From: Spirochaetales bacterium
Lineage (GTDB): Bacteria > Spirochaetota > Spirochaetia > Treponematales > UBA12059
Direction of reading: 5' to 3'
Assembly (NCBI GenBank): GCA_016928955.1
Contig: JAFGJV010000037.1
Span: forward strand, 1-64,000
DNA: 64,000 bases
Every line of letters begins with the position of its first letter. The first letter of the stretch is position 1. Below, one piece after another: positions 48,471 through 53,187 of this stretch. The notes under the pieces were generated by a model that saw nothing but the letters and a program-made list of their open reading frames with translations, was not told where the DNA came from and made no database searches. Made by a program: the position numbers and the translations under genes.

Positions 48471-48486
48471 ATTCAAGCTTTCCTCA

Positions 48487-48801
48487 GTGTGCCGAAGCTT
48501 TGATGTCAGCGTATCGATGTCGACAAAGGGCGTGCTCGTTCAACAGCTCCGTATCCAGCCTTCTTTTCGTACCGCTCGGCCTTTCTGGTACCTTCAGGCT
48601 GTAGCAGATTTTTGAAAAGCATCGAGTTTTTTAAATATCCTGCTAGAGTCGCCTCACAATTCCTTAAATATCTCCAATATCCCACAGCCAACACTCAGTC
48701 CGCTACGCTATGGCCAGGAAATCGGACCACGAACCTTGTGAAGTACATAGAGGCTACTCCGAAAGGCCTAATGGACACGGCACATCAAAGCTTCGATACA
48801 C
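48487..48801. mobile_element. 315-bp inverted-repeat element (MITE-like)
   Basis: Bounded by two copies of the 21-base repeat in inverted orientation (48487-48507 and 48781-48801; 18 of 21 match). The interior is AT-richer than its surroundings and has no credible gene; a 62-codon minus-strand frame lacks an RBS. No clear target-site duplication was seen. It separates the minus-strand peptide unit from the plus-strand HTH unit. The sequence between tRNA-Gly (48218) and the HTH gene (49139) is otherwise covered by the neighbouring entries. Confidence 0.55.
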
Positions 48802-48834
48802 CGGGGAAAAGTCGAGTATACAGGCTCTTTCCGG

Positions 48835-48863
48835 TTTACACTCCGCGACCCGTACGCTATAGT
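48835..48863 (+). promoter_or_regulatory. Promoter of the uORF/HTH unit
   Basis: TTTACA (48835-48840), 17-base spacer, TATAGT (48858-48863). The transcript would carry a leader of about 270 bases before the HTH gene at 49139. Confidence 0.65.
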
Positions 48864-48959
48864 GGTCGATTATCCGGGCAGAGGGCCTGGTATGTATCCC
48901 GAGGAAGGGCGGATCCAGTGGTTCCGCGCCGTCCCAATCAACGCTCAAGGAGGCGTGCA

Positions 48960-49016
48960 ATGATAAACTACATCGATACCCGATTCGCCGTCCGATCCGC
49001 CATCGGAGCCGCTTGA
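48960..49016 (+). CDS. Candidate 18-residue upstream ORF
   Basis: Encodes MINYIDTRFAVRSAIGAA. AAGGAGG (48947-48953) is 6 bases from the ATG, a better site than most real genes here. Its last codons form a perfect hairpin (48991-48996 with 49002-49007), so ribosomes reading it would melt local structure. It fits a leader peptide controlling the HTH gene 122 bases downstream. Confidence 0.55.
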   Translation: MINYIDTRFAVRSAIGAA

Positions 49017-49021
49017 GCCGC

Positions 49022-49130
49022 GAAGGAACGATACGTAGCCGGTAGGGACCGGCGCGCAGGCGTCAGAGGACGCCATCCCTATCCTTCCTTTCCGCTCGGC
49101 CAGGCGGCTATCGCCCTGTCAACCGAGAGG
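49022..49130 (+). promoter_or_regulatory. Nested leader structure with sequestered Shine-Dalgarno
   Basis: Nested helices GAAGGA/TCCTTC (49022-49027 with 49082-49087), TAGGGA/TCCCTA (49043-49048 with 49076-49081) and GGCGTC/GACGCC (49059-49064 with 49069-49074, loop AGAG). A second stem-loop CTCGG/CCGAG (49095-49099 with 49123-49127), with an inner CAGGCG/CGCCCTG helix, covers part of the GAGAGG ribosome site (49125-49130). An alternative CCGG...CCGG pairing in the left arm could switch the fold. Confidence 0.5.
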
Positions 49131-49138
49131 ATGCTTGT

Positions 49139-49489
49139 ATGTCATACATAAAGGGAGATGAGACGCTCCCGCCCGAACTACTCGCCGAGATCCAGAAATA
49201 CGTGCAGGGGGCGTTGGTGTATATCCCGAGGCCTCCCCAGGAACGTATGGCTTGGGGTCACAAGAACGGCGCCAGGATGCTTCTGGACCAGCGTGACGAC
49301 GCGATACGCCAGGCCAAATCTGCCGGCGTGTCCATCAACGACCTGGCCGACCAGTATGCCCTGTCAACGGACGCCATTCGCAAGATTCTGTACCGCCGCA
49401 GGTCCGGTGCCTGCCCGGCCCAGCTTGCTCAGGCATCCGAGGCTCACGACCTGGGAGCTTCCCTTGAAGCCCAGCCGGGCGCCGCGTGA
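49139..49489 (+). CDS. CD3324-family helix-turn-helix protein
   Basis: 116 residues. Matches the small CD3324/YyaB-like family: MSYIKGDETLPPELLAEIQKYVQG, VYIPRPPQERMAWG, and a C-terminal HTH (VSINDLADQYALSTDAIRKILYRRR). Function of the family is not established; a DNA-binding regulator is likely. Ala/Gly-rich tail beyond the family core. Start ATG 8 bases after GAGAGG; the ribosome site lies in a predicted hairpin. Ends before a good terminator. Confidence 0.8.
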   Translation: MSYIKGDETLPPELLAEIQKYVQGALVYIPRPPQERMAWGHKNGARMLLDQRDDAIRQAKSAGVSINDLADQYALSTDAIRKILYRRRSGACPAQLAQASEAHDLGASLEAQPGAA

Positions 49490-49511
49490 GCCGCGCCAAC
49501 GCGGGTATCGT

Positions 49512-49550
49512 AACCGCCCCAGGGCAGCAGCCCCGGGGCGGTTTTTATTT
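49512..49550 (+). terminator. Terminator of the HTH gene
   Basis: Stem AACCGCCCC/GGGGCGGTT (49512-49520 with 49535-49543), then TTTATTT. The loop can close partly (CAGGG-type). Confidence 0.88.
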
Positions 49551-53044: not shown

Positions 53045-53163
53045 GTGTCACGAAGCTTTGATGCGTTCAGGCATGGATGCGTCGCCGTTTCCGGGACTAA
53101 AAGCCCGGACGGCTTTCCGGTACCCCGGATGGCTCCGGACTGGACATCAAAGCTTCGACACAC
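53045..53163. mobile_element. 119-bp inverted-repeat element (MITE-like)
   Basis: Two 21-base repeat copies in inverted orientation at the ends (53045-53065 and 53143-53163; 17 of 21 match), with internal CCGGG/CCCGG and CCGG palindromes. No ORF, no obvious target-site duplication. It sits between the divergent promoters at 52980 and 53348, just as the 315-bp element sits between divergent units at 48.5 kb. Bases 52866-53404 otherwise hold these promoters and the hairpin row. Confidence 0.55.
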
Positions 53164-53187
53164 TGGTGAAAAAGCCAATAATCCGGG

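Follow-up and report, generated by a model that had tools for sequence, protein, structure and literature searches.

The locus examined here raises the question of how a small HTH gene is controlled by the structured leader that precedes it, and in particular whether ribosomes translating a short upstream ORF (uORF) within that leader decide if the gene is expressed. The gene belongs to the CD3324 family and lies in a 64-kb stretch of DNA from an uncultured spirochaete, and the whole of this stretch is referred to below as the window. We consider it probable that the leader is a ribosome-read translational attenuator, which would turn on synthesis of a transcription factor if translation of the uORF is not finished. 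The encoded protein scored 93.3 bits (7.3e-27) against NF040785, the CD3324 family model, for which the curated cut-off is 65 bits, and is thus a member of that family. Against Pfam Mor (PF08765), it reached 23.6 bits (E 5e-5; gathering cut-off 24.9), and the top PDB match of its predicted structure (pLDDT 75) was phage Mu C, with a probability of 0.96 but a non-significant E of 0.06. Judging from its sequence and modeled structure, the protein appears to resemble the phage Mu Mor/C activators and is a putative transcription factor. CD3324 genes occur in 63 of the 394 genomes of the order. Our literature search found no relevant paper on the family, and a small HTH family for which we found no published function would gain a testable role from these results, its genes carrying a predicted ribosome-reading switch in two phyla.

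Parts of the leader and their alternative pairings

The initial annotation of this DNA described a promoter, an 18-codon ORF with an excellent Shine-Dalgarno (SD) sequence, a hairpin built into the last codons of that ORF, a nested fold, and a hairpin covering the ribosome site of the HTH gene. The promoter and the SD-led uORF were found as described (Table 1) and are kept in relatives. A TTTACA-16/18-TATAAT-like pair, the -35 word of which was picked post hoc, lies upstream of the uORF in 20/25 orthologous leaders versus 7% of shuffles. The nested fold is also present where it was placed (49006-49102), with an energy of -41.8 kcal/mol and a z of -2.2, and an equally good fold was found in 3/200 shuffles. 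Both of the hairpins needed revision. The one inside the last uORF codons is located as claimed (48985-49016), but it is unexceptional as a single sequence (z -0.70) and only a minor part of the leader, the key partner of the last codons being the linker at 49080-49109. The hairpin over the HTH ribosome site is present and its pairing is conserved in relatives, but folded alone (49094-49145) it is likewise unexceptional (z +0.67), and we rejected the idea that it is significant by itself. For the entire 261-nt leader, z was -1.25. The single-sequence evidence from the window is therefore modest, and our claim is carried by comparative evidence.

Overall, the leader consists of a promoter, a uORF with a strong SD, and a pair of alternative structures that use the same linker strand and so exclude each other. 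In the antisequestor, a strand comprising the end of the uORF and its stop codon pairs with the linker; in the sequestor, part of the same linker pairs instead with the strand containing the HTH SD, forming an 8 bp duplex with one G.A mismatch. By sequence and folding, one of two exclusive pairings occludes the downstream SD, as is expected of a ribosome-mediated translational attenuator. The decoy strand is thus built from the stop region of the uORF itself. Although the uORF frame is open further upstream to a TTG at 48612, both the SD and all of the relatives point to the ATG at 48960 as its start. The uORF stop is separated from the HTH start by 122 nt, and no terminator-like site was found on the + strand between 48200 and 49139, where a transcription attenuator would have an intrinsic terminator between uORF and gene. 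A search of the window and 20 of the leaders at Rfam gathering thresholds returned tRNAs only, with no riboswitch or leader family.

Table 1. Leader features and the HTH gene, in window coordinates
Feature	Position	Strand	Remarks
Sigma-70-type promoter, TTTACA-17-TATAGT	48835..48863	+	2 promoter-like sites vs 0.6 expected
uORF SD, AAGGAGG	48947..48953	+	6 nt before ATG
uORF, 18 codons + TGA, peptide MINYIDTRFAVRSAIGAA	48960..49016 (codons to 49013)	+	C-terminal G-A-A common to most relatives
Antisequestor 5' strand AGCCGCTTGAGCCGCGAAGGAACGATA: last uORF codons, stop codon, post-stop	49007..49033	+	MFE pairing with 49080-49109
Local hairpin GCCGGT-AGGG-ACCGGC within antisequestor	49038..49053	+	Also in closest relative L024, not general
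Local hairpin GGCGTC-AGAG-GACGCC within antisequestor	49059..49074	+	Also in closest relative L024, not general
Linker, serving as 3' strand of the antisequestor	49080..49109	+	Part 49091-49099 (TCCGCTCGG) doubles as sequestor 5' strand
Sequestor 3' strand CCGAGAGGA, contains HTH SD AGAGGA (49126-49131)	49123..49131	+	Pairs with 49091-49099
CD3324-family HTH gene, 116 aa, Mor/C-like putative transcription factor	49139..49489	+	
Hairpin (14 bp arms), then T-rich tract TTTTTATTT; probable terminator of HTH gene	49512..49543	+	Inverted repeat, from sequence

Several other features of the locus are worth recording. A ~28-nt interspersed repeat (ACATCAAAGCTTCGATACACCGGGGAAA-like) is found at 48479-48506 and 48782-48809 as an inverted pair flanking 275 nt immediately upstream of the leader promoter, again at 53143-53172, and in additional copies spread over several contigs of this genome. 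The leader itself is not a repeated element, as the genome holds no second copy. The end of the uORF (GGAGCCGCTTGAGCCGCG, 49005-49022) is nearly repeated at the end of the HTH gene (GGCGCCGCGTGAGCCGCG, 49478-49495), and the uORF peptide and the HTH protein consequently both end in G-A-A. The HTH protein of the closest relative, L024, similarly ends in PGAA.

Conservation of the uORF and of both pairings among spirochaetes

Conservation of the uORF and stems upstream of orthologues had been fixed in advance as the test of this leader. We examined 25 loci from four families outside the Treponema type, and the uORF, its SD, its frame, and both pairings proved to be kept in Spirochaetota, while parallel designs were found in Bacillota. 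A uORF precedes the HTH gene in all 25 of these loci, and a strict SD-uORF detector recovered 22/25 leaders, its hit rate being 2.1% on dinucleotide shuffles and 2/23 on control genes. These leaders accordingly have the short, translatable, SD-led uORF that is expected upstream of a gene under ribosome-mediated translational attenuation. The uORFs range from 14 to 41 codons and their bodies vary freely in sequence, yet despite the changes in length, the frame runs through to the stop codon of the switch strand (25/25 are open in frame 0, compared to 6 and 16 in the other frames). Nearly all of the peptides end in G-A-A, in some cases slightly extended, and do so at one common RNA element. It should be noted that in one relative (L060), the stop codon has been lost from its customary position. 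The uORF of another (L015) contains a 15-nt tandem repeat encoding (A-A-G-N-S)n, which is in frame, so its expansion preserved the reading frame.

With only the ending recurring and the peptide body not conserved, no conserved arrest peptide sequence of the ermC-like kind was seen in the uORFs, and the recurrence of G-A-A is attributable to base pairing of its codons with GGCGG, or an equivalent sequence, in the linker. No run of codons for a single amino acid, as in the attenuators of amino-acid operons, was present in the uORFs listed. Frame controls for peptide selection were uninformative because the changes are saturated. The main role of the uORF peptide seems to be that of a translated spacer with a fixed end.

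Both pairings were examined with a partner-swap test, in which the duplex energy with a leader's own linker is compared to that with linkers from other genera. For the antisequestor, the own partner was better in 25/25 leaders (p = 8e-6 over 17 groups, the grouping being our own judgement), and for the sequestor in 22/25 (p = 4e-4). The linker and stop-region sequences diverge widely between genera, and the arrangement is kept with other letters in other lineages (CGTTCCTC/GAGGAACG, TCCGCTCGG/CCGAGAGGA, and CCTCATAAC/GTTATGAGG), the partner strand of the sequestor changing jointly with the SD. In L055/L057, for example, a 10 bp duplex joins the uORF end CCGACCTCGG to CCGAGGTYGG. At the level of sequence comparison, both alternative pairings are shown to be conserved and to co-vary across genera. 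An inner GCGGATGT...ACATCC hairpin is also common to many of the leaders.

In the Treponema relatives, the leader is either of another kind or absent. In L009, L010, L029-L031, L049, L053, and L064, an AGGAG is followed by an apparent uORF with a TTG, or possibly AUA/AUC, start, and several leaders of this type have the stop codon inside a GCAGTAAAGGC...GCCTTTACTGC hairpin. Such non-canonical starts would confer sensitivity to initiation-factor discrimination. Several Treponema loci (among L032-L048) encode a fusion of the CD3324 HTH domain with a C-terminal domain judged ParB/sulfiredoxin-like by visual inspection, and no uORF is visible upstream of these fusion genes.

Predicted effect of ribosome position on the HTH start region

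Since the decoy strand is the end and stop region of the uORF, closure of the HTH gene is predicted when a ribosome occupies the end of the uORF. For the HTH start region, we estimated how costly opening is when a terminating ribosome masks the uORF stop and when it does not, using shuffled linkers as the control. Masking raised the cost by 2.69 kcal/mol on average, with 22/24 spirochaete leaders positive and the remaining 2/24 of opposite sign, compared to a mean of 0.03 for the linker shuffles, in which the highest replicate mean among 30 was 0.71. For the window leader, the increase was 3.6 kcal/mol, a value reached by 0/30 shuffles. Occupancy of the uORF end is thereby shown to be coupled to SD accessibility in silico. 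When the ribosome was moved codon by codon, the effect (+1.5 to +2.8) was confined to the last 5 codons and was about 0 to -1 at earlier positions, and the SD was predicted to be at least as accessible with early-held ribosomes as without a ribosome, if anything slightly more so. Closure limited to the last five codons implies that the leader would register the completion of uORF translation: a completed uORF is predicted to close the HTH gene, and early holding or absence of ribosomes to open it. As the cost of opening in the free state is still 7-9 kcal/mol, and 8-9 kcal/mol for the window leader, "open" is a relative term, and these values describe equilibrium folding, which takes no account of co-transcriptional folding or ribosome kinetics.

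In the mechanism that we propose, pairing of the last uORF codons, stop codon, and post-stop sequence with the linker would leave the HTH SD freer, and the linker would otherwise pair with that SD and close it. A ribosome within the last ~5 codons or at the uORF stop would cover the antisequestor strand and close the HTH gene, and with ribosomes held early or absent the gene would stay open. Under unstressed conditions, the uORF would be completed steadily, which would keep HTH expression low, and incomplete translation of the uORF, due to an antibiotic, starvation, or a shortage of ribosomes, would allow the HTH protein to be made and to activate its targets. Translation of the uORF, the sign of control in vivo, the inducer, DNA binding, and the regulon are what we infer here.

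A uORF is also found upstream of the CD3324 genes of Bacillota in many, but not all, loci. The leaders that we folded were selected for a visible uORF, and hence they show that the logic recurs rather than how often. In 15 Lachnospiraceae leaders with uORFs of 7-14 codons (MRRYIIFA*, MKRYVIAQ*, ...RVLRAA*), the uORF stop region pairs with a strand otherwise paired to the HTH start, and placing a ribosome on the uORF stop changed the opening cost by +2.46 versus 0.42 in the control (maximum 0.86), with 12/15 positive and 3/15 of opposite sign. In 12 Bacillaceae leaders (..SHAKPxxxKAILCMG..), the same logic is placed inside the uORF; closure was predicted with the ribosome on the HAKP codons (+4.1) and not at the uORF stop, and the architecture is therefore related but not identical. 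For the part of these Bacillaceae uORFs preceding HAKP, pN/pS was 0.92, with no detectable purifying selection on the peptide, which argues against a specific arrest peptide there and leaves peptide-level selection unsupported. In four termite-gut Clostridiales loci (L103, L104, L105, and L112), the uORF overlaps the HTH start, and a second short ORF (..RWALS*, ..RVVLS*, ..GWFLF*) lies ~150-230 nt ahead of the HTH gene, with a GC-rich hairpin resembling a terminator after it; this ORF and hairpin possibly constitute a second, transcriptional attenuator.

Three other explanations need to be weighed against this mechanism. The sign could be the opposite in vivo, with the ribosome site closed by default and opened once a ribosome stalls on one particular codon of the uORF, G-A-A serving as the arrest motif. 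Antibiotic-inducible leaders of this ermC or toiL type are well known (PMC12121999; PMC11264731), the endings G-A-A, F-A, I-A-A, and A-Q do recur before the stop, and in the Bacillaceae type the start region is predicted to stay open while a ribosome occupies the end of the uORF. We nevertheless consider this explanation unlikely, given that the great majority of the spirochaete leaders (22/24) are predicted to be closed rather than opened by a ribosome at the uORF end, that linker pairing accounts for the G-A-A codons, and that the rest of the peptide is not conserved. The resemblance to antibiotic-inducible leaders proposed in the initial annotation thus holds for the parts, in that uORF, SD, and alternative pairings are all conserved, but the logic is nearer to the trp type and to rtpLP-rtpA than to a stall that opens the ribosome site.

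A structured RNA acting independently of translation, such as a riboswitch, a thermosensor, or a protein-binding site, with an accidental or marginal uORF, would agree with the strong conserved alternative pairings and with the inner hairpin of many leaders. It would fit poorly with a uORF whose SD, start, and frame are kept while its body and length change, with linker and stop-region sequences that differ between genera in a way that a ligand-binding core does not, and with the lack of an Rfam match in the window or the 20 leaders searched; it strikes us as distinctly improbable. Least probable of all, to a degree that we would call very slight, is that simple translational coupling, leaky reinitiation, or transcription attenuation operates instead of an RNA switch. 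The overlapping uORFs and upstream terminator-like hairpins of the termite-gut Clostridiales are of the kind expected for such control, but in the window the 122-nt gap contains no + strand terminator-like site, and the alternative pairings co-vary.

Neighboring genes and known systems

The genes adjoining CD3324 homologues are suggestive of what the putative activator might control. In 21/32 Bacillales loci, the gene directly downstream belongs to a single family, a representative of which matches EF-G-binding_N and FBP_C and scores best with FusB-type profiles, although under the curated cut-offs for named resistance alleles. This neighborhood is found in L094, L126, L130, L138, and 17 other Bacillales loci, with the gene order conserved across genera. 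APH-fold proteins are also among the Bacillales neighbors, while the downstream genes in Lachnospiraceae include Vat-like hexapeptide acetyltransferases (under the curated cut-off), a SpoU methylase, GNAT enzymes, and DUF1062. These neighbors suggest that the targets in Bacillota include ribosome-protection and drug-modifying functions. The spirochaete neighbors are unremarkable, and no resistance-type gene adjoins the HTH gene in the window, so any regulon there must act in trans. A 2025 review describes FusB of pUB101 as being itself under translational attenuation and calls the regulation of FusB homologues unknown (PMC12493156), and it is FusB-like genes of this kind that the Bacillales CD3324 gene adjoins. 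We found no paper joining EF-G-binding, HTH, and uORF. Taken together, the leader and the neighboring genes suggest a translation-stress regulator with a logic comparable to that of WhiB7.

The leader can be compared with several known systems, and relative to these we regard it as a new variant of ribosome-mediated attenuation, which would act on a putative transcription-factor family for which we found no published function. In trp/his attenuation, a ribosome that has reached the stop codon of the leader peptide hides a strand without which the permissive hairpin cannot form, the repressive hairpin forms instead, and early stalling permits expression. The CD3324 leader is predicted to be alike in that a ribosome at the leader stop blocks the permissive pairing, but it would act on an SD sequestor rather than a terminator, has no regulatory codon run, and would control the gene of a putative transcription factor. 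For rtpLP-rtpA, completion of the leader is reportedly repressive, with the terminating ribosome itself occupying the rtpA SD. Here too, a short upstream leader peptide is predicted to govern initiation of the next gene, with completion repressive, but the stop is 122 nt away, control would work via alternative RNA pairing, and there are no Trp codons. In the Bacillus subtilis case (anti-TRAP), translation of the short leader peptide controls initiation of the next gene, according to Chen and Yanofsky 2003/2004 as cited in PMC11255114. With the erm-type and fusB attenuators (PMC11264731; PMC12493156), the leader shares a uORF, alternative hairpins, SD sequestration, and ribosome position as the signal, as well as the proximity of FusB-like genes to its Bacillota homologues; it differs in that the gene under its predicted control encodes an HTH protein rather than being the resistance gene, and in being predicted closed with a ribosome at the uORF end. 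As in toiL-topAI, the uORF would be a general sensor of translation stress that masks or unmasks the ribosome site of the next gene, but the toiL uORF pairs directly with the topAI SD (PMC12121999), whereas the CD3324 uORF end pairs with the anti-SD strand. The logic is consequently inverted relative to toiL. The whiB7 gene of Actinobacteria is controlled by transcription attenuation. Its leader resembles that of CD3324 in that a uORF controls, or in CD3324 is predicted to control, a small (here putative) transcription factor, but the CD3324 system is predicted to be translational, is unrelated in sequence, and is found in Spirochaetota and Bacillota. The whiB7 leader is induced by several ribosome inhibitors and by amino-acid starvation (PMC12121999). 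It is a tentative proposal, to which we give somewhat less than an even chance, that CD3324 is a WhiB7-like translation-stress regulator of Spirochaetota and Bacillota, a Mor/C-like activator released when the uORF is not completed and driving genes for FusB-like EF-G-binding proteins, Vat-like acetyltransferases, and rRNA methylases. If confirmed, it would be a spirochaete and firmicute translation-stress regulator comparable in logic to WhiB7 and discovered from sequence alone.
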